Source: a virus
Length of the DNA stretch: 52,318 nucleotides
Strand: one strand, 5' to 3'
Virus record (IMG/VR): IMGVR_UViG_3300025012_000117
Span: 1 to 52,318 of that record
This document shows, piece by piece, positions 2,419 to 45,772 of the stretch. Position 1 is the stretch's first letter, and every line of letters starts with the position of its first letter. The translations under genes and the position numbers were made by a program. The notes under the pieces are model-generated. The model saw nothing but the letters and a program-made list of their open reading frames with translations, made no database searches and was not told the origin of the DNA.

Positions 2419-2964
2419 ATGGCTTTCAAGCTTACGGTTAAACAGGAAAACTATGTACAGGGTTTATTTAGAGGATTGACTCAAAGGCAAGCATATAAGG
2501 CGGCTTATGATGCTGAGAATATGACAGATAAATCCATAGATGAGAAAGCTTGTGAATTGGCGGCTAACGTCAAGATATGTGAAAGGCTTGAACAATTACA
2601 AGATGAGATTAAATATAGGAACATGGCAACGGTCGAAAGAGTTGTTGCGGAATATGCCAAAATAGCCTTTTCAGACATAAAAGACTTCGTTTCGTTCAAG
2701 ACTGAGAAGACAATTGTGGACACTGATGATGAGGGAAATCCTATATATGGATACAAACAAATAGTAGATGCCAAATCTTCTGAGGAAATAGATGGATCTA
2801 TGGTGAATGAGGTGTCTATTGGCAAAGATGGGACGTTTAAGTTCAAGCTACACGACAAAAAAGGTGCATTAGATATGATCGGTAAGCACCTGGGCATGTT
2901 TGTAGATAAGGTTGAAGTAGATGCCGCTCAAACTATCACAATCCGCATTGAAGACACTGAATAA
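2419..2964 (+). CDS. terS: Terminase small subunit
   Basis: This 181-residue protein matches the terminase_2 type of small subunit. The N-terminal part LTVKQENYVQGLFRGLTQ leads into a helix-turn-helix (RQAYKAAYDAE) and a helical segment with AANVKICERLEQLQDEI, and the C-terminal half is typical of the oligomerisation part. The small subunit recognises the packaging site on phage DNA and hands it to the large subunit. A GGAAGGTG ribosome site precedes the ATG. Unusually, terL does not follow directly: about 2.6 kb of other genes and non-coding DNA lie between. The family call is confident from sequence pattern. Confidence 0.88.
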   Translation: MAFKLTVKQENYVQGLFRGLTQRQAYKAAYDAENMTDKSIDEKACELAANVKICERLEQLQDEIKYRNMATVERVVAEYAKIAFSDIKDFVSFKTEKTIVDTDDEGNPIYGYKQIVDAKSSEEIDGSMVNEVSIGKDGTFKFKLHDKKGALDMIGKHLGMFVDKVEVDAAQTITIRIEDTE

Positions 2965-2976
2965 TATATTATTTAT

Positions 2977-2997
2977 AACTATTATATTTTAATAGTT
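2977..2997. repeat. AT-rich inverted repeat after terS
   Basis: AACTATT (2977-2983) and AATAGTT (2991-2997) form a 7-bp stem with a 7-base loop just after the terS stop. It lacks GC pairs and a clean T tract, so it is at best a weak terminator. Confidence 0.35.
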
Positions 2998-3005
2998 GAT
3001 ATAAT
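2997..3005 (+). promoter_or_regulatory. Extended -10 promoter element
   Basis: TGATATAAT (TG at 2997-2998, TATAAT at 3000-3005) is a perfect extended -10 box. No good -35 is present, which extended -10 promoters tolerate. It would start transcription at about 3012, into the inverted-repeat-rich non-coding region. Confidence 0.5.
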
Positions 3006-3097
3006 AGTGTCCTTCAGTGGTGGAATTAGCCCTTTGTATTATCATTTAGAGGGTGTTTTGAGAGGTAATAGCCTTAGATCAGCCTATAGGTTGATTC

Positions 3098-3130
3098 CGA
3101 ATGTGACACTATGCCGTTGTGTCACATTCG
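3098..3130. repeat. Perfect 12-bp inverted repeat
   Basis: CGAATGTGACAC (3098-3109) and GTGTCACATTCG (3119-3130) are perfect complements around a 9-base loop. The stem is too regular to be chance, and there is no U-tract to make it a standard terminator. It may be a protein-binding site or the core hairpin of an RNA. A second stem (ATCAGCC/GGTTGAT, one G-U pair) lies directly upstream. Confidence 0.7.
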
Positions 3131-3775
3131 TTTAGTGATCATGTGTTAGGACATGGCACAAAGCAAAGACTATTGGATATCCGGTAGCCAATGCTGCACA
3201 GATGAGAGTTGTGCTAGATGGCTGTCGCTCTACACTACTAGTCATTACCAAGGATGAGTATTGTCCTTGTCCTGCTCTCCCTGCTCTGCCCTATGGGGTA
3301 TGTCTGATCTGCCGGACTGACCGGACACTAGGGGTAGGGGGACGGTACTAGGACCACCGAGGCATGGGGCCGGTATACCCCTCGTATATATGTATACCTA
3401 TCCCCCTATCTCTCTCATTAATTCATCAACCATGAATACCTAAACCTCTCCTACAAAAACATAATCCACAAGTATATTCATACGAACACTTCCTAATAAA
3501 CTCAATACATAAAGCATAACTCCAACATAAGCATGAACCCCAAACATAAAGCAAAGCCCAATACCGCATTCCAAATTTTGCGCGCTCAATTTTTATATAT
3601 TTTTAGTAATGCCCTTTGCGAGAGTGAGGGGTGTTTGACGTTGGAATGGAACGACGTAAGCAAGACCCAAGAGAACTACTCTTAGTGTGACGACAAGCCA
3701 AAACCCTGTACCCCTTGGGGGAGTAAGGAAATATAGAGGTTGTGAATTATCACACTTGAAACGGCTAAGGCGGTG

Positions 3776-4572: not shown

Positions 4573-5292
4573 ATGCCGATTAGAAGAGAAAAGATTACAA
4601 CGTATGAACAGGCGTTTAGATTAATTCATGTTTCGGTGACAGGAAAAGCAATGTTTATAGTTAAGGATTTAGAGAAACAGGGACACAATGAGAAGAGTAT
4701 TTCTTTTGCAATATGGAAGTCGTCGGAAAAACTATGCGGATTAAGAAATGACCCAAGGTTTGAGAGTATTTTTATTAACGAGATAAGAAAGTGGTCATGG
4801 CCTAGCGGTGATCCTCGATGGAAAGAGTTTCACAAGAAAAAAGAAGAAGAACTTAAAGCCATTGAATTAGATAAAATTGAAAAAAAGAGAAGAAATCAGG
4901 AACAATCTTACAAAAAGAGATATCCTGGTTTTATTTATTTTATACAGGGTGAATCCGGTGGTTCCGTAAAGATTGGATATGCCGCAGATATTACAAAGCG
5001 GATAAAGACATTACAGACAGGTTTCCCAGAAACTCTAATTATCGTTAAATCATTTCCGGGGAACATAAGCGATGAGGGCGGATTCCATGAAGAGTTTAAG
5101 GATTTTCGCATAAGGGGCGAGTGGTTTGATCCCATAGTATTGGAGAGTGCCGATATGGTTGTTGGTAAGATCCAAAAGGATAAGCAGTTTTGCTGCAAAA
5201 AGTGTGGTGGAGAGGAGTTAATGAATATCTTCGATGAAATGGGATTAGTTGGACGCGCTTGTGTGAGGTGTGGATTATTGGTGAAAGCTTAA
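4573..5292 (+). CDS. GIY-YIG-like (T5orf172/MUG113) nuclease
   Basis: I prefer ATG 4573 over an in-frame TTG at 4561, because the GAGGAG ribosome site abuts the TTG directly. The 239-residue protein has a basic helical N-terminal region, then a T5orf172-type domain beginning FIYFIQGESGGSVKIGYA with the conserved HEEFKDFRIRGEWFDP segment, and a C-terminal four-cysteine zinc ribbon (CCKKCGG ... CVRCG). Such domains belong to the GIY-YIG nuclease superfamily and occur in phage homing-type genes. Its insertion between terS and terL fits a selfish endonuclease gene; the activity is inferred. Confidence 0.78.
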   Translation: MPIRREKITTYEQAFRLIHVSVTGKAMFIVKDLEKQGHNEKSISFAIWKSSEKLCGLRNDPRFESIFINEIRKWSWPSGDPRWKEFHKKKEEELKAIELDKIEKKRRNQEQSYKKRYPGFIYFIQGESGGSVKIGYAADITKRIKTLQTGFPETLIIVKSFPGNISDEGGFHEEFKDFRIRGEWFDPIVLESADMVVGKIQKDKQFCCKKCGGEELMNIFDEMGLVGRACVRCGLLVKA

Positions 5293-40490: not shown

Positions 40491-40727
40491 TCACATCACG
40501 CCTGCCGTAAATTCGAAGAACTTCTTGAGCAACTGCCACGCTACGGCTACTACCGAAAGGATAGCGACAATTATAGTTGCTGTTCTTAACATTCCTGCGA
40601 CCTGCCCCTTATTTACTGCTCCTAATATTAACTCCCCTAACCAAGATCCCACACCAAGCATAACTAAGATGATAATTACGAATCCCGGCTTACCTGGTCC
40701 GAATACCTCCCTTGCTGCTTCTGCCAT
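40491..40727 (-). CDS. Two-helix membrane protein (pilin- or VirB2-like shape)
   Basis: The 78-residue protein has a short polar N-terminus, two strong membrane helices (FVIIILVMLGVGSWLGELIL and TATIIVAILSVVAVAWQLL) and a short tail. Its start overlaps the end of the replication-relaxation gene and its stop lies one base before the M23 gene, so it belongs to one operon. The size and topology are those of VirB2/TrbC-like subunits of transfer channels, but sequence evidence is weak. A holin-like role cannot be excluded. Confidence 0.68.
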   Translation of the reverse strand: MAEAAREVFGPGKPGFVIIILVMLGVGSWLGELILGAVNKGQVAGMLRTATIIVAILSVVAVAWQLLKKFFEFTAGVM

Positions 40728-41376
40728 TTAAGCATTCCTCCTTTATTTGATCTAACGAATAAACACGAAATTCAAGATTATGGACATTCTCTTTATCAAT
40801 TTTCTCCTTGATAGACTTAACTCTTCCGGTAGTCACCACAATAATAGCAGGGAATCGCTTGGATAAAGGAACCCACCATTGATTCATATAGGCCCCTGAA
40901 CCAAAAAGATCGTTGTATTTTTTAACCTTCTTGGAAAAATCATTTCCGCTTTTACCAATATCCATTTCGACGAAATAGAAATACATAGCATCTTGCCATA
41001 GATTATTTATCCCCACAAAAGCATCCGGTCGAATAGTCTTGTAATCCTTAATCTCCCTGTCAAAACAATGAAGTTTTTCCATATTGGAGAGAGTTGTGTT
41101 TATCCAAGTGAAGACCCATGACACGCCTAGAACATGCTCTAATTGACCCGGCCTACGATCTAGGTAGTAATGATATGGTTCACCTAGTCTTAGTCTGTCA
41201 CGATTGATTTTAGCGTGTGGTGGAGTGGACAAGATAGTTAGTCGACGCTGAACTATACGTAGGCAATTACCCTTGAATAAGAGAAGGTGAACCATATCTG
41301 TGGTTAAGACTGTTTGGGATTCTAGCATGTCGATTAGCTCCCTATCGCGGCGACAACATTTTGCGTGGTTGTTCAA
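40690..41376 (-). CDS. Replication-relaxation family protein
   Basis: The 228-residue protein has an N-terminal winged helix (RDRELIDMLESQTVLTTDMV and RIVQRRLTILS), then LGEPYHYYLDRRPGQLEHVLG, then a core with YFVEMDIGKSGNDFSKKVKKY and AIIVVTTGRVKSIKEKID. This order is typical of the replication-relaxation (Replic_Relax) family found on Gram-positive plasmids and integrative elements, usually next to an FtsK/TcpA-like gene as here. The family is presumed to act at DNA processing or relaxation; the reaction is not established. It overlaps both neighbours. Confidence 0.76.
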   Translation of the reverse strand: MNNHAKCCRRDRELIDMLESQTVLTTDMVHLLLFKGNCLRIVQRRLTILSTPPHAKINRDRLRLGEPYHYYLDRRPGQLEHVLGVSWVFTWINTTLSNMEKLHCFDREIKDYKTIRPDAFVGINNLWQDAMYFYFVEMDIGKSGNDFSKKVKKYNDLFGSGAYMNQWWVPLSKRFPAIIVVTTGRVKSIKEKIDKENVHNLEFRVYSLDQIKEECLNGRSSKGGIRTR

Positions 41377-42475
41377 TCTTTATCAACTCGCTTCGTGCAA
41401 TCATTGGTCTATTGTTATAGAGTTTTATCGCTTCGTCTGGTTCCAGTAATAATGTTTGGACTTCTAATTTATCAAGACCACATTTATAGATAGCCCTGCC
41501 TTTTATTGCAGGGAGGTGTGCCGCCTCATCGCTGTCTAAGATCATCCTGGAGTTAATTATATCGGCCACAACAAAACATATCCTTCCGAGAAACATTGCC
41601 TTTAGATCACCAAACTTTTCAAACACTTTGGAGGATGGTCTCTGCGTGGCTGCAATTACATGTACTCCAACAAATCTCCCCATCCTTAGAAGCCTCCATA
41701 AGCTGTCTTGTGCATCTTCTGGCAAGTCTGCCCACTCATCTATAATTAGGACTATATAGGGCATCTGGTGGCCTTTCTCATGGTATTTTTTTATCTTAGC
41801 GCATGATGCCGACTTTAGAATCTTCTTTCGCTTATCCATCTCTTTATTCAGTGACTCGAACAAACCCTTAACCTGACTCATTTCATCTACTACTAAAGCC
41901 ATTTCATTAAGATAGTCAAACTCAGTCGATTTAGGGTCAATGATAATCAAGTTGGTGTCCGGTCTGTAAAGGAGGATTGAGTTTGCGATAACATGGAGTT
42001 GATTCGATTTTCCATAGTTCGTTTCCCCGGCTGTTAGTAGGTGCGGATACTCCACAAGGTCCCTGACTATTAATCCTTTGGCGGATATTCCTATCGGGAT
42101 AGGTAATTCCATCTTGGAGTATTTAGTGTGATCGAAAAGAGAATATGGGTATTTCTTTTTAAGTTCTTCGGTTATTACCTCCATCGTAATTGCCTTGCCA
42201 TGCTTTTCTATGTGGACGGAACCACCTGTAGCGTCTGAAAATAGATTAGTTTTCTTCTGGAAATCAGTAAACCCGGTACCAGGAGGAAGATAAATAGTAA
42301 ACGTCCACACTTCTCCTTTTTTTGACTTGTGGATAATCAAGGGTTTAAGCTCATCCTTGGAGTATAAGGCGTTAATGCAATCCTGAACCGCAGCGTGAGC
42401 ATCATTCCCTTTTCGATGCAACCAAAGTGATTTAAGTTGGTCCCTTACTTCCTCTATTGCGTTTTGTTGCTTCAT
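41342..42475 (-). CDS. FtsK/SpoIIIE-like DNA translocase
   Basis: The 377-residue protein carries the FtsK ATPase core: Walker A GETNYGKS (residues 150-157), Walker B IVLIIDEWADL (241-251) and the following HVIAATQRPSSKVF segment. It lacks long membrane segments, so it is shorter than host FtsK and closer to the transfer ATPases of Gram-positive plasmids. It pumps double-stranded DNA, in conjugation-type transfer or segregation. ATG 42475 lies inside the preceding gene with AAAGGGGATTG upstream. It is adjacent to a replication-relaxation gene, a common plasmid pair. Confidence 0.86.
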   Translation of the reverse strand: MKQQNAIEEVRDQLKSLWLHRKGNDAHAAVQDCINALYSKDELKPLIIHKSKKGEVWTFTIYLPPGTGFTDFQKKTNLFSDATGGSVHIEKHGKAITMEVITEELKKKYPYSLFDHTKYSKMELPIPIGISAKGLIVRDLVEYPHLLTAGETNYGKSNQLHVIANSILLYRPDTNLIIIDPKSTEFDYLNEMALVVDEMSQVKGLFESLNKEMDKRKKILKSASCAKIKKYHEKGHQMPYIVLIIDEWADLPEDAQDSLWRLLRMGRFVGVHVIAATQRPSSKVFEKFGDLKAMFLGRICFVVADIINSRMILDSDEAAHLPAIKGRAIYKCGLDKLEVQTLLLEPDEAIKLYNNRPMIARSELIKIEQPRKMLSPR

Positions 42476-42626
42476 CCATCAATCCCCTTTCTATCAATAC
42501 TTTCCTAAGTCCGTCTCTAATCATGTCGGCTAGTTCTCCTTCTTCAAAGCTAAGACACATAATAGCTTGCCGAATATCCTTATCCCTCTTTCTTAACCTT
42601 GCCCTAAGGATTGATATATCTTCCAT
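42432..42626 (-). CDS. Small helical protein overlapping ftsK-like gene
   Basis: ATG 42626 has an exact AGGAGG site. The 64-residue product (MEDISILRARLRKRDKDI, AIMCLSFEEGELADMIRDGL) is charged and helical and overlaps the FtsK-like gene by 44 bp in another frame. It heads the leftward operon 42626-39905. It may be a plasmid-type regulator; no family is recognised. Confidence 0.62.
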   Translation of the reverse strand: MEDISILRARLRKRDKDIRQAIMCLSFEEGELADMIRDGLRKVLIERGLMDEATKRNRGSKGPT

Positions 42627-42703
42627 TTGTGTACCTCCTGGGTAATCGTTGTGTTACATAAAGGTATGGCGCACAACTCGTCCAATATTACTGTTAAAAT
42701 TAG

Positions 42704-42733
42704 ACAAAAAAGAACCAGACATATTATGTCTGG
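42704..42733 (-). terminator. Terminator of the MerR-like gene
   Basis: CCAGACAT (42715-42722) and ATGTCTGG (42726-42733) form a perfect 8-bp stem. Read leftward it is followed by TTCTTTTTTGT (42714-42704), a good T tract. It overlaps the stop codon of the 42724-43275 gene. Confidence 0.75.
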
Positions 42734-43275
42734 CTGAATATTCTCCTCCACCACGGATTATTGCGTTGTTGTTGTATCACTTTAATATCATTGAGTCGTT
42801 GTATTACCTCATTATCCCTGTTCTCTACGTCCTTATATCCATCTTCGACCTTCTTGTGGAGTCCTGTAAACCCTTCATTAAACTCTGCCCTCATATCCTC
42901 AATTTCCTCTTGTAGTTGAATGATAATTCGGTTCTGCTTAGTAATTTCTTCGAGGAGGACGTGGCGGATAGTATGCGCTAAATCTTCTTGTTGCGTTGCC
43001 TCTGTGCTGTTGTCCGGTTCTTGCGTAACAATATCGGTTGTTACGTTAATTCCATACATTTTGTCTAATAGCTCTACTATTTGATCGTGGTCTAATTTCC
43101 TGACATATGATGCCTTAATAACATTCAATATCTCCACGGTGGATGATTTCTCAAACTTAGTCGTTTTTCCTTCTCCCTGGGTTCGAAAATATTGGAGGTA
43201 AACATCCTTGTAATATCGACAGGTACTTATGTTTATGTCAGTAAGTTCGGAGCATTGTTTAAGTGTTAGATACAC
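42724..43275 (-). CDS. MerR/RacA-like plasmid maintenance protein
   Basis: GTG 43275 is the first possible start (an in-frame TAA lies just upstream), with AAAGGA 12 bases before. The 183-residue protein has a MerR-type winged helix (YLTLKQCSELTDINISTCRY ... YFRTQGEGKTTKF), then a long coiled coil (QNRIIIQLQEEIEDMRAEF) and a basic PWWRR end. This layout is frequent in Gram-positive plasmids and some phages and is related to RacA-type DNA-binding proteins; partition or replication control is assumed. It reads away from the iteron-like repeats at 43361-43418. Confidence 0.74.
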   Translation of the reverse strand: MYLTLKQCSELTDINISTCRYYKDVYLQYFRTQGEGKTTKFEKSSTVEILNVIKASYVRKLDHDQIVELLDKMYGINVTTDIVTQEPDNSTEATQQEDLAHTIRHVLLEEITKQNRIIIQLQEEIEDMRAEFNEGFTGLHKKVEDGYKDVENRDNEVIQRLNDIKVIQQQRNNPWWRRIFSQT

Positions 43276-43360
43276 GACTTATGCACATCCTTTCTGTGGA
43301 TAATATCCTCGCGCATATTATTAATAAGATCACTCTTGTAAGAGTATTTCTTGTGGAGAA

Positions 43361-43418
43361 AGATTCTTTCGGGGTCCCCGTAAAATTCTTTCGGGGAGGG
43401 GGAAAGATTATTTCGGGG
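43361..43418. repeat. Three iteron-like repeats with exact 22-bp period
   Basis: The core TTTCGGGG begins at 43367, 43389 and 43411. The longer consensus is AAGATTCTTTCGGGG, with copies differing at one or two positions. The 22-bp period keeps the sites on one face of the helix, as in plasmid iterons or centromere repeats. They lie between the replication-protein gene and the MerR-like gene. Binding by one of these two proteins is inferred. Confidence 0.78.
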
Positions 43419-43428
43419 TTGTTGATAA

Positions 43429-43818
43429 CTATTGTCTTTCCTTCATCATCATTTCGTAGAGGGTATCAGGGCTTATTAATCCTTCTTTTACGGATCGTTC
43501 AAGGTGTTCAGTTACCTCCGAACAAAGGAAATACATTACCTTCTCATCTCCCGGTATCCCGGCCTTTACTATCCATATGTAACCCCGTTCTTCTAGCCAC
43601 ATCATGCCAGCTGTAACGCTTGGCCTTGATAACTTAGTTAATTTCAGGAGTTGTGGCATGGCTAGGTAGTCCCCAACCTTTTCCCACCCCCAGCATTTCC
43701 TTATAAGGGTAAAATAGCATTTAAGAGCAGCTAAGTTTGTTATCTCTGGCATAAGTTGGTCGAACACTATGTTTGGCACTTCTGTATAGTTTTTTTGCGG
43801 GCGCGGCAATTTGAACAC
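43429..43818 (-). CDS. Short winged-helix replication initiator/organiser
   Basis: GTG 43818 has AGGAG nine bases upstream. The 129-residue protein contains YTEVPNIVFDQLMPEITN, AALKCYFTLIRKCWGW and the winged-helix LLKLTKLSRPSVTAGMMWLE. The arrangement of this N-terminal domain is that of phage O-like and DnaD-type replisome organisers and plasmid initiators. It is shorter than most, with only a small C-terminal tail. It is flanked by iteron-like repeats on one side and by a long leader with antisense RNA signals on the other, so a replication initiator role is favoured. Confidence 0.75.
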   Translation of the reverse strand: MFKLPRPQKNYTEVPNIVFDQLMPEITNLAALKCYFTLIRKCWGWEKVGDYLAMPQLLKLTKLSRPSVTAGMMWLEERGYIWIVKAGIPGDEKVMYFLCSEVTEHLERSVKEGLISPDTLYEMMMKERQ

Positions 43819-43850
43819 AATAAAAAACTCCTATCAAACCAAATTAAAGG

Positions 43851-43879
43851 ATGACAGGAGCAAAAATGTGTTTTATACT
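43851..43879 (+). promoter_or_regulatory. Rightward promoter of the antisense RNA
   Basis: ATGACA (43851-43856), a 17-bp spacer and TATACT (43874-43879) form a good promoter reading against the leader of the replication gene. No protein gene lies downstream on this strand before the terminator. Confidence 0.68.
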
Positions 43880-43885
43880 AAATTA

Positions 43886-43957
43886 AAGCACATATAGATT
43901 CCTGTCTAGGGCCTCTTCGAACATCACTTTGGCGGTGGGTAGTTCGGAGAGGTTTTT
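43886..43957 (+). ncRNA. Candidate countertranscript RNA against the rep leader
   Basis: The promoter at 43851-43879 would start a transcript near 43886. An 11-bp stem, CCTCTTCGAAC (43912-43922) with GTTCGGAGAGG (43942-43952) and one G-U pair, followed by TTTTT (43953-43957), would end it after about 72 nt. The RNA is fully complementary to the 5' part of the leader of the replication gene and covers its GACAGGA element. This matches the layout of antisense copy-control RNAs of Gram-positive plasmids. Prediction from signals only. Confidence 0.62.
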
Positions 43958-43988
43958 CCTTTTCTCCCTAATTCGACAGGTTCAATCT

Positions 43989-44018
43989 ATTATCCTATCT
44001 AGCTGAAAAAATAAGCAA
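43989..44018 (-). promoter_or_regulatory. Candidate promoter of the replication gene
   Basis: On the reverse strand TTGCTT (44018-44013) and GATAAT (43994-43989) are 18 bp apart, giving a start near 43982 and a leader of about 165 nt. It overlaps the end of the small gene 43999-44112. Confidence 0.42.
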
Positions 44019-44112
44019 CAAACTCATAGAGATACCGAGGGTCGAGTATAGTTAGTTCATCATCCACTACTATCCACTTAAAGAACCCTGCTAAATCTCG
44101 TTCAATAATCAT
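43999..44112 (-). CDS. Hypothetical protein (37 aa)
   Basis: ATG 44112 on the reverse strand has AAAGGAAG upstream. It encodes MIIERDLAGFFKWIVVDD and a short aromatic C-terminus, ending at TAG 43999-44001. It lies between the repressor terminator and the replication leader. A candidate promoter is at 44137-44165. It is short, with no known family. Confidence 0.5.
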   Translation of the reverse strand: MIIERDLAGFFKWIVVDDELTILDPRYLYEFVAYFFS

Positions 44113-44136
44113 TTGAAAAACTTCCTTTCTTGTCTT

Positions 44137-44165
44137 ATGATACAATACATTTTCCCTGCTTTCAG
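44137..44165 (-). promoter_or_regulatory. Candidate leftward promoter
   Basis: On the reverse strand CTGAAA (44165-44160) and TATCAT (44142-44137) are 17 bp apart, upstream of the 37-residue gene and possibly reading on into the replication gene. Confidence 0.38.
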
Positions 44166-44220
44166 TTGGTCTTCATAACCATAATTACGACTATATATTT
44201 CCTTATATTTAAAAATGCGC

Positions 44221-44262
44221 AAAGAAAAGCGAGTATCCGTTGTATTACGATTGGATACTCGC
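44221..44262 (-). terminator. Terminator of the repressor gene
   Basis: GCGAGTATCC (44229-44238) and GGATACTCGC (44253-44262) pair over 10 bp. Leftward the stem runs into TTTTCTTT (44228-44221). Confidence 0.78.
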
Positions 44263-44271
44263 CAAAATATT

Positions 44272-44652
44272 CTATCTTGACTTCATTTTCTTGATTGACT
44301 CTAAGAGTTCGCGCAGGAAGATGGGGTCTATTTGTTCTATCGCTAAATCACGCGCCAGTACAGCATATGCTAGGCTCTCAGGCTTACTAAAGAATTCTAC
44401 TATGTCAGATGGGGGGTCGTATCCCGTTATCCTAGTAAGTGATTCCAAGGAAACAGCAGCATCGTCCATAAAAAAATAGGTATTGGCATTAAGCGCCTTG
44501 GCTATTCTCTCTAATGATTTCATTGCGGGGCGCTTTTTTTCATTCTCAATATCACTTAAATAAGGGGTAGACAATCCGCATTTTTTAGATAAATCAGAGA
44601 GTGTCATTTGTCTCAATTCTCTAACGTATCTAAACTTTTCTCCGTAATTCAA
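44272..44652 (-). CDS. XRE-family phage repressor
   Basis: TTG 44652 has GGAGGTG seven bases upstream. The 126-residue protein has an N-terminal XRE helix-turn-helix (LRQMTLSDLSKKCGLSTPYL, then SDIENEKKRPAMKSLERIA) and a C-terminal helical part without a LexA-type protease dyad. It is divergent to a second XRE gene at 44890, the classical immunity switch. It probably holds the lytic genes off by binding the TATATGATAA-type sites between the two genes. Without an autoprotease, induction would need another route, for instance the BRO protein or a peptidase. Confidence 0.85.
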   Translation of the reverse strand: MNYGEKFRYVRELRQMTLSDLSKKCGLSTPYLSDIENEKKRPAMKSLERIAKALNANTYFFMDDAAVSLESLTRITGYDPPSDIVEFFSKPESLAYAVLARDLAIEQIDPIFLRELLESIKKMKSR

Positions 44653-44668
44653 TTACAACACCTCCGAT

Positions 44669-44866
44669 TTATCATATAACTAATATGCTTCGCAACCCTA
44701 TTACTATACCCCGTTTATTGATACCACAACACGGTAAAATATACCTCTTAGCTATATGATAAATTATTTCATAAACTATTGACTATTTATCTATTAGCGT
44801 ATAGAATATGCGTATGGAAGAAATTATATACATCTTTTTGTAAAAAAAAAGTTATCTATATGATAA
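44669..44866. promoter_or_regulatory. Three operator-like TATATGATAA sites in the immunity region
   Basis: The 10-mer appears as TTATCATATA at 44669-44678, in the repressor leader, and as TATATGATAA at 44753-44762, upstream of the rightward -35, and 44857-44866, in the leader of the Cro-like gene. Exact copies near both start sites suggest binding by repressor and Cro-like protein. Confidence 0.6.
44779..44807 (+). promoter_or_regulatory. Rightward early promoter (PR-like)
   Basis: TTGACT (44779-44784), 17 bp, TAGAAT (44802-44807), directly upstream of the Cro-like gene and beside an operator-like site at 44753-44762. Confidence 0.68.
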
Positions 44867-44889
44867 GTGAGGGGGTGAACTTAAACAAA

Positions 44890-45111
44890 ATGAAGCCTAA
44901 GCAAAGCATTGGGGATAATGTTAGGGACTATCGTAAGAAACGCGGATTAGACCAAAGAGAGCTTGCCCTCATAGCAGAGTTATCAGGTCCGACCATTAGT
45001 AATATCGAGAGAAACGTTAAAATGCCATCCGTTAAAACTCTAGCTAAAATAGCTTACGTTCTCCGTTGCTCGGTAAGCGACTTGATGCAAGATGCAGTAG
45101 AAATAAAGTAA
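44890..45111 (+). CDS. Cro-like XRE regulator
   Basis: I take ATG 44890; GAGGGGGTG lies about ten bases before. The 73-residue protein is a single XRE domain: KQSIGDNVRDYRKKRGLDQR, ELALIAELSGPTISNIERN, MPSVKTLAKIAYVL. Small size and divergence from the repressor gene make it the Cro counterpart of the switch. It reads into the BRO-type gene. Confidence 0.8.
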   Translation: MKPKQSIGDNVRDYRKKRGLDQRELALIAELSGPTISNIERNVKMPSVKTLAKIAYVLRCSVSDLMQDAVEIK

Positions 45112-45124
45112 GGAGAGGTTATGG

Positions 45125-45772
45125 GTGAATACTCGTATTGAAACTTGGCTAGGCCACGAAATACGCTTTATCGAAGTTAATCCCAATGATTGGTGGGCTG
45201 TAGCAGTTGATATTTGTAAAGCCTTAGACTTGAAGCAAGTAACAAAAGCGTTAAAAGGTTTGCCATTACCCGGGGTTACTACTAGTAAGGTAGGGGTAGT
45301 AACGGGTGAAAGGCGAGATGGAACAATCTCAACCCAAGAAGTAATGATAAATATCATTGACTCTAAGAATATCTATCGATTGGCTTTCAAAAGTCGAAAG
45401 AAAGAAGCAATTCAGTTTCAAGATTGGGTATTTGATATCCTTGAAACCCTACGAAAATCTGATGGATTAGAAGGTTTCCAAATATTCCGTATGCTCGACA
45501 AGGAACATCAACGTGAAGCTATGCGCCAACTTAAATTAAATCTAACCAAACCTATCAAGGTTGATTACATCAAAGCCAACACGGTTGCCAATAAAACGGT
45601 ATCCACGATGTTCGGTTATTCAAGGATGTTAAAGAAAGATGCAATGACCCCTGAAATGCTTGTACAACGTCAAGAAGTGCTTAATGAAACCGTAAATCTT
45701 ATGGGAGTAAATGAAAAGTTTAATTTGGACCTTTCAATTGGTAAGACGGTTAGGGGTAAGTATTTGAATTAG
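45125..45772 (+). CDS. BRO-family antirepressor
   Basis: GTG 45125 has AAGGAGAGG upstream. The N-terminal half is a BRO-N domain (EIRFIEVNPNDWWAVAVDIC, KALDLKQVTKALKG, then SKNIYRLAFKSRKKEAIQFQ and DWVFDILETLRK). The C-terminal half is a separate helical domain with VDYIKANTVANKTVSTMFGY. Such proteins typically counteract the repressor or regulate early phage genes. Position directly behind the Cro-like gene supports the antirepressor role. Confidence 0.8.
   Translation: MNTRIETWLGHEIRFIEVNPNDWWAVAVDICKALDLKQVTKALKGLPLPGVTTSKVGVVTGERRDGTISTQEVMINIIDSKNIYRLAFKSRKKEAIQFQDWVFDILETLRKSDGLEGFQIFRMLDKEHQREAMRQLKLNLTKPIKVDYIKANTVANKTVSTMFGYSRMLKKDAMTPEMLVQRQEVLNETVNLMGVNEKFNLDLSIGKTVRGKYLN

Follow-up and report, generated by a model that had tools for sequence, protein, structure and literature searches.

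The leader of a replication initiator gene in a tailed-phage genome was found to carry the anatomy of an antisense-controlled attenuator. We consider it probable, at roughly 0.8, that this leader acts as a pT181-type transcription attenuator by which a plasmid-like prophage sets its copy number. The window analyzed is the whole virus record IMGVR_UViG_3300025012_000117, of 52,318 bases. Sequence and folding model gave two mutually exclusive folds of the leader, one of them with an intrinsic terminator before the initiator (rep) gene, and a countertranscript with its own promoter and terminator could be placed by sequence inside the same leader. The anatomy itself, its conservation and a strand-specific pattern of wobble pairs were observed directly. 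An earlier note on this DNA had proposed an antisense RNA and mutually exclusive pairings following the logic of plasmid copy control, a proposal supported by the 15 conserved leaders and the strand-specific wobbles described below.

The initiator gene and its surroundings

The window encodes terminase subunits, a portal and a head protein, indicating a tailed phage. On the minus strand the genes follow in the order XRE-type helix-turn-helix (HTH), small ORF, leader, 129-aa gene, MerR-like, FtsK-like and Replic_Relax. The product of the 129-aa gene (43429–43818, minus strand; start codon GTG at 43818–43816), a winged-helix protein, matched phrog_678 in PHROGs (E 1.3e-10) and PF04492 in Pfam (E 8.6e-5, under the curated cut-off) and, by these matches, is a short O-like initiator. 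The matches, together with iterons and DnaA-box-like sites directly below the gene, give good support in the window to its earlier designation as a replication gene. Relatives of the protein, none reaching 40% identity, were found in 15 phage records (Acinetobacter, Pasteurella) and in seven plasmid-collection records. One further relative was found in a metagenome-assembled genome (MAG) of Bacilli, and a search of 395 genomes of that class returned the same genome plus one weak match.

Directly below the initiator gene, on the minus strand, lie three iterons of the CCCCGAAAGAATCTTTC type with 22-nt spacing (43357–43418). Two DnaA-box-like sites, TTATCAACA with one mismatch (43428–43420) and TTATCCACA (43303–43295), are found on the same strand, and the origin of the window is predicted by sequence at about 43295–43428, with the iterons inside. 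Iteron arrays were found directly below the initiator in 12 of the 15 loci scanned, and as many copies were reached in 0–1 of 30 shuffles; DnaA-box-like sites, one mismatch allowed, accompanied all 12 arrays. The iteron sequence varied between relatives, and at least one 22-nt step was constant in the 12 loci with an array. A wider scan also showed an iteron array in L036. No array was detected within the 1.8–3 kb scanned at L034, L039 and L051, which belong to one initiator group, and the idea of an origin below every initiator was not borne out, 3 of 15 loci being without iterons.

A 126-aa XRE-type HTH gene with an HTH_3 match (44272–44652, minus strand) lies upstream of the leader on the same strand, and a Cro-like HTH gene and an antirepressor gene are encoded on the plus strand, to the right of the replication module. 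From its position opposite the Cro-like gene, the 126-aa protein looks like a lysogeny repressor. In the lysogeny switch so delimited (44272–45772) the leftward XRE repressor-like gene faces the rightward Cro-like gene and antirepressor, and the initiator gene sits on the repressor side.

The gene below the initiator was read as MerR-like with a coiled coil, with no significant Pfam match. The FtsK-like and Replic_Relax genes (40690–42475, minus strand) are co-directional with the replicon, and the FtsK-like protein has relatives in Bacillus phages and Gram-positive plasmids. Replic_Relax was rejected as a constant partner of the leader, a match being obtained in 2 of 21 records by a search that under-reports, since it missed the window's own protein, which passes when scanned as an ORF.

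Rival pairings in the leader

Four minus-strand segments of the leader, CCUGUC, GACAGGA, CUCCUGUC and GAUAGGAG as RNA, take part in competing pairings. Segment 1, CCTGTC (43975–43980, inside AACCTGTCGAATTA at 43969–43982), can pair with segment 2 or with segment 4. Segment 2, GACAGGA (43900–43906), is the antiterminator and is covered by the predicted antisense RNA. Segment 3, CTCCTGTC (43853–43860), provides the 5' arm of the terminator and, read on the opposite strand, overlaps the −35 box of the antisense promoter. Segment 4, GATAGGAG (43828–43835), combines the 3' arm of the terminator with the ribosome-binding site, and a run of six T follows it directly (43822–43827, minus strand), just before the start codon. 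Hairpin 3:4 was computed at −16.5 kcal/mol and ends nine bases above the start codon; with TTTTTT directly after it, it has the form of an intrinsic terminator which also holds the ribosome site.

TCCTGTC (43859–43853, within segment 3), GACAGGA (43906–43900) and GATAGGAG (43835–43828) were found on the minus strand exactly where the earlier note had put them. Its scheme of three segments held as regards the rival pairings and was incomplete, the fourth, upstream segment at 43980–43975 having been missed, as had the run of six T. The same note had proposed that translation is blocked. Occlusion of the ribosome site is retained here as a probable second layer, and it was not upheld as the main effect, because the six T right after the blocked hairpin predict above all termination of transcription, as in pT181.

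Between the leader and a candidate promoter for its mRNA (CTGAAA-17-TATCAT, 44137–44165, minus strand; 9 of 12 consensus positions, weak −35 box) lies the small ORF of 37 aa (43999–44112, minus strand), with kin before 14 of the 15 leaders; its product in the window had no Pfam or PHROG match. In L008, L009, L036, L039 and L046 this ORF is longer, with a hydrophobic end. The −10 region of the candidate promoter was kept in the eight sequences aligned. An alternative −10 box, GGATAAT above segment 1, was rejected, being altered in L008, L009 and L036 among others; in the terminated fold of L003, moreover, these letters are paired with the stretch that follows segment 2.

An antisense promoter and terminator inside the leader

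On the plus strand the promoter ATGACA-17-TATACT (43851–43879; 10 of 12 consensus positions) precedes a hairpin with five T (43911–43957; stem 43911–43953, T5 43953–43957). Taking a start 7 nt after the −10 box, the script predicted an antisense RNA of 72 nt (43886–43957, plus strand). Promoter, stem with five T and transcript of about 72 nt all agree with what had been claimed earlier, the first on the sequence and the second by folding. The region 43880–43965, which contains the antisense stem, folded at −26.4 kcal/mol (z −2.94), a value matched by one of 200 shuffles. For the minus strand of 43816–44018 the margin over shuffled sequence was much larger (z −4.75), with none of 200 shuffles folding as well.

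By itself the promoter match is unremarkable, with 11 such matches in 3 kb against 8.3 ± 3.1 expected. The combination of an antisense promoter with a strong antisense terminator 40–140 nt further on never arose when the window leader was shuffled 200 times, and arose once in 1,200 shuffles over six leaders. In a scan of 456 real upstream regions (those of ORFs of at least 120 aa in loci over 5 kb, duplicates included) the combination was present in 27, of which 18 were replication-gene leaders and nine were not. Three of the non-replication hits, in the window upstream of 26887 (plus strand), in L030 upstream of 2893 (minus strand) and in L050 upstream of 1084 (minus strand), precede a gene for an HNH endonuclease and HTH genes resembling that of the phage repressor.

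Rfam holds a pT181 ctRNA family. No relevant family was matched at gathering score over the whole window, nor at E up to 10 over 43750–44150, where the best match was DdR13 (E 0.12, far below its cut-off). DNA similar to 42600–44800 was not found in phages; the leader itself had no similar DNA in the plasmid collection and one 24-base match in phages, at E 0.5.

Conservation of the leader in related phages

A search with the initiator protein gave ten viral loci, and an alignment of eight gave 25, those ten included. Leaders were sought with a pattern made of the segment 1 core and the loop AAGTGAT, from which segments 2–4, both promoter boxes and the T run were excluded. This returned 26 stretches with 19 distinct 150-nt cores, 15 of them true leaders, the window included, and 14 complete; L052, cut by a contig end, was left out of the 14-leader counts. 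Four cores (L028/L037/L045, L035, L041/L053 and L048) were dropped as chance matches, their antisense folds (one representative each) being −7.6 to −9.1, with no segment match and no terminator. Seven of the 15 leaders (window, L003, L004, L005, L008, L009 and L013) could be reached via the initiator protein; in the eight found only by the pattern, the segment 1 core is conserved by construction.

In all 15 leaders the best antisense promoter match fell at the same place (9–11 of 12 positions), and the hairpin between segments 1 and 2 was stabler as antisense (−21.9 to −28.5 kcal/mol) than as sense (−13.0 to −21.7 kcal/mol). The T tail of the antisense hairpin is T5 in eight leaders, T4 in three, and shorter or broken by C in four (L013, L034, L036 and L039). 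A T-rich run follows hairpin 3:4 in all 14 complete leaders, with T6 in the window.

Changes of the segments in relatives without compensation had been named in the earlier note as evidence against the pairings. In the 14 leaders, pairing was kept in 195 of 196 cells for 1:2 plus 3:4, the exception being one T-T in L036, in 97 of 97 for 2:3, where L008 has a gap in an additional cell, and in 83 of 84 for 1:4. When the columns were slid by 1–3 positions the values became 39–44, 36–53 and 25–58%, respectively. In L013 and L036 a T-to-C change in segment 3 is matched by A to G in segment 2 and by G in segment 4, so that this position can still form either of the rival pairings; most changes in the switch pairs are wobbles. 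Column shuffles reached the observed value in 144 of 500 trials for 1:2 plus 3:4, 16 of 500 for 2:3 and 500 of 500 for 1:4. By themselves they give no covariation support for 1:2 plus 3:4 or for 1:4, and modest support for 2:3. This control is weak; variation within the segments is small, the leaders are related to one another, and segment 3 has a second reason to be conserved, as it is also the antisense −35 box. The switch claim therefore rests on the near-complete retention of pairing and on strand asymmetry, not on strong covariation.

The strand asymmetry was read from wobble pairs. The stems of the antisense hairpin held 166 Watson-Crick pairs, 45 pairs that are G-U only on the antisense strand and three that are G-U only on the sense strand; G-U and C-A were treated alike when these stems were chosen, and the 45 include outer pairs formed with the U tail. 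In the 14 leaders the opposite held for the switch pairs (1:2, 2:3 and 3:4), with 32 sense G-U and no antisense G-U. Two RNAs from opposite strands, each holding its own structure, would explain these wobbles, one RNA would not, and the counts, made on related leaders whose cells are not independent, point to selection on opposite strands. The leader switch is real and conserved and, judged by this evolutionary signature, functional.

Predicted operation of the switch

Folding of the nascent RNA without segment 4 favoured pairing 2:3 (P > 0.5) in 12 of the 14 leaders, at P 0.63 in the window; the exceptions were L013 (P 0.26) and L034 (P 0.03). When the antisense-covered part was roughly blocked, all eight terminator pairs formed in 11 of 14 leaders, seven of eight in L036, five of eight in L031 and none of eight in L046. 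The full-length window leader without antisense RNA already had the terminated fold as its optimum (−56.8 versus −52.7 kcal/mol), so the ON state would have to be kinetic, with read-through depending on folding order. Copy control requires that the antisense RNA turn the gene off, and this is the sign that the model predicts.

From the anatomy we infer the two transcripts, termination at hairpin 3:4 and the following sequence of events. In the nascent mRNA, segment 2 would pair with segment 3, RNA polymerase would pass and the initiator would be made. The amount of antisense RNA should rise with the number of phage copies. Once bound to the sensing hairpin and segment 2, it would leave segment 3 to pair with segment 4, and the hairpin with its U6 would end transcription immediately ahead of the start codon; on mRNA that has already been transcribed, the same hairpin may also hide the ribosome site. 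Segment 1 would favour termination when paired with segment 2 and oppose it when paired with segment 4.

Relatives with other leaders

Four loci (L010, L011, L012 and L014) have initiators 59–67% identical and leaders of different sequence. Each showed an antisense promoter match of 10–11 of 12 and a strong antisense terminator, predicting an antisense RNA of about 70–89 nt. The leader of L010 precedes a 91-aa gene, which itself stands before the initiator. L010 and L011 have a terminator-like hairpin that stands about 24–26 nt above the start codon and does not include the ribosome site. The model formed this hairpin whether the leader was blocked or not, so that the anatomy alone is shown in these two. 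The scan found no T-run terminator before the gene in L012 and L014. There, blocking of the antisense-covered part lowered the unpaired fraction of the ribosome site from 0.66 to 0.05 (L012) and from 0.51 to 0.23 (L014, with the antisense end set too short by the script). The wider initiator family shares one layout, in which the terminator overlaps the ribosome site, stands apart from it, or is absent with predicted occlusion instead.

Alternative explanations

The observations were weighed against other ways in which such a leader could work. In control of translation only, as in pSK41 and as in the earlier note, the antisense RNA would induce the hairpin at the ribosome site and block initiation while transcription goes on. 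The position of the ribosome site in segment 4 fits this, as do L012 and L014, where no T-run terminator was found and blocking left the ribosome site more paired in the model. It is nevertheless unlikely as the whole explanation: T6 follows the hairpin directly in the window, a T-rich run does so in all 14 complete leaders, the terminator-like hairpins of L010 and L011 leave the ribosome site outside, and pT181, which has the same overlap, is described in the accessible text of its sources as acting mainly on transcription (PMC5703833, PMC5435934). Collision of polymerases, or degradation of the mRNA in a duplex, could instead be the main effect, with the switch pairings secondary. Two predicted promoters do converge across the leader, and convergent transcription also matters in pIP501, as far as the available text goes (PMC4981023). 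Neither process needs alternative pairings, yet these are kept in 14 leaders, in two of them with both sides changed, and we regard this explanation as improbable.

Still less weight falls on attenuation by a leader peptide, in which translation of the small ORF rather than an antisense RNA would choose between 1:2 and 2:3, as in amino-acid operons. A small ORF precedes 15 of 15 leaders, one frame has a stop codon across segment 1 in every leader, and the upstream ORF of L013 ends inside segment 1. Against this, the window ORF ends 18 nt above segment 1 and showed by eye no run of regulatory codons, and both the antisense promoter and the strand-specific antisense hairpin would be left unexplained. 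The L013 ORF differs from the others, having about 60 aa and ending at 4857 (plus strand) within segment 1, where its translation could disturb the switch. A short ORF ending in segment 1 was rejected as a general regulator, a start codon being absent in 4 of 15 leaders. That promoter-like match and hairpins came together by chance has next to no probability: the promoter match does not exceed expectation by itself and nine of the 456 upstream regions passed the scan without being replication leaders, but the 15 conserved leaders, the strand-specific wobbles and the single success in 1,200 shuffles refute chance for the anatomy. An antisense-controlled transcription attenuator is the reading retained.

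Comparison with known systems

The closest likeness is to the repC attenuator of the Staphylococcus plasmid pT181. The accessible text of its sources describes an antisense RNAI of 87 nt, similar in length to the about 72 nt predicted for the window, and, as here, an antiterminator at the foot of a sensing hairpin and AGGAG within the 3' half of a terminator hairpin that lies shortly before the start codon (PMC5703833, PMC5435934, PMC4878617). The leader of the window differs in being carried by a tailed phage, in matching no Rfam pT181 family at either threshold, in having no similar DNA in the plasmid collection, and in controlling an O-like winged-helix initiator rather than a Rep_trans nicking protein. 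By the tests run it is pT181-like in logic, not homologous.

With the copR-RNAIII-repR module of pIP501/Inc18, as described in the available portions of PMC4981023 and PMC5703833, the window has several features in common. An XRE HTH gene stands upstream, on the strand of the initiator, where CopR is encoded in pIP501; the leader, of about 300 nt when counted here from the candidate promoter, contains an antisense promoter; and rep is preceded by a T-run terminator and followed by an origin. The initiator here is not of the RepR/RepE type, iterons are present, the antisense RNA is shorter (136 nt in pIP501), and the 126-aa HTH protein stands opposite a Cro-like gene with the looks of a lysogeny repressor. 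In the RepA_N plasmid pSK41, according to the accessible text of PMC5703833, the ribosome site is hidden in a hairpin whose formation the antisense RNA induces; L012 is predicted by the model to act likewise, whereas the hairpin of the window has its T6 run and should also terminate.

Exchange of the leader between replicons

The initiators below the 14 leaders formed three blastp groups at 1e-3, with 7, 3 and 4 members, the proteins of L046 and L050 being cut by contig ends. Members tested from the other two groups (L031, L039 and L051) had DnaD-like or replication-initiation families as best or near-best PHROGs; they also matched the O-like phrog_678 weakly (E 9e-9 to 8e-4), and a remote common origin is thus possible. 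The window leader is 92–93% identical to those of L031, L034 and L039, whose initiators had no blastp match to the window initiator, and 77–80% identical to those of L003–L005, whose initiators are 91–93% identical to that of the window. Leader identity does not track initiator identity, which indicates from the sequences compared that the leader moves as a cassette, independently of the gene it controls. The contig of L039, a leader-carrying phage, also encodes a protein read from its translation as TnpB-like, of transposon type (2541–3635, plus strand).

Pairing of the window antisense RNA with the leaders of L031, L034 and L039 was computed at −129 to −134 kcal/mol, against −145 with its own leader; shuffled antisense RNAs gave a mean of −34.5 and a best value of −49.8 kcal/mol. 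It is conceivable on these sequence comparisons, though we hold it only tentatively, that temperate phages swap the copy-control cassette and that replication of an incoming phage could be silenced by a resident prophage whose replicon is of another type.

Prophage lifestyle and implications

Phage structural genes and a plasmid-type replicon stand together in the window, the combination that defines a phage-plasmid, recognized here by sequence only. No match to tyrosine-integrase or serine-resolvase profiles was obtained in any of the 17 records searched out of 20 leader contigs (L003, L006 and L052 were left out); records may be fragments, and the search is weak, since the tool used for it failed to detect the Replic_Relax protein of the window itself. 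A ParA profile matched in two of the 17 records, the L050 and L051 contigs and not the window, and, as read from translations, L010, L014 and L051 each have a ParA gene no more than about 2 kb from the initiator. Given that the initiator lies on the side of the repressor in the lysogeny switch and that no integrase was detected, a plasmid-like prophage is likely, and we infer that the likeliest role of the module is to maintain the prophage extrachromosomally at a set copy number.

Several RNAs encoded by phages regulate phage genes, among them lambda OOP, P22 sar, P4 CI RNA and P1 C4; to our knowledge none of these is a countertranscript attenuator of a prophage replication initiator. Among the open-access literature matches listed, by their titles and abstract starts, none reported an antisense attenuator of a phage replication initiator, and nothing among the matches listed dealt with how plasmid-like prophages set their copy number. 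Extrachromosomal mycobacterial prophages with RepA or RNA-based origins are likewise phages maintained as plasmids with replication and partition functions; the accessible text of that source does not name an antisense attenuator (PMC7157519).

For one group of phages, the leader described here offers a concrete and testable answer to the question of copy number, namely the logic of pT181 placed on the repressor side of a lysogeny switch. The leader family would also supply natural variants of an RNA switch that, according to the available text of PMC5435934 and PMC4878617, is in use in synthetic biology. Should silencing across exchanged cassettes prove true, it would amount to RNA-based incompatibility or superinfection immunity across replicon types, a cross-immunity between different replicons that the usual same-replicon view of plasmid incompatibility would miss.
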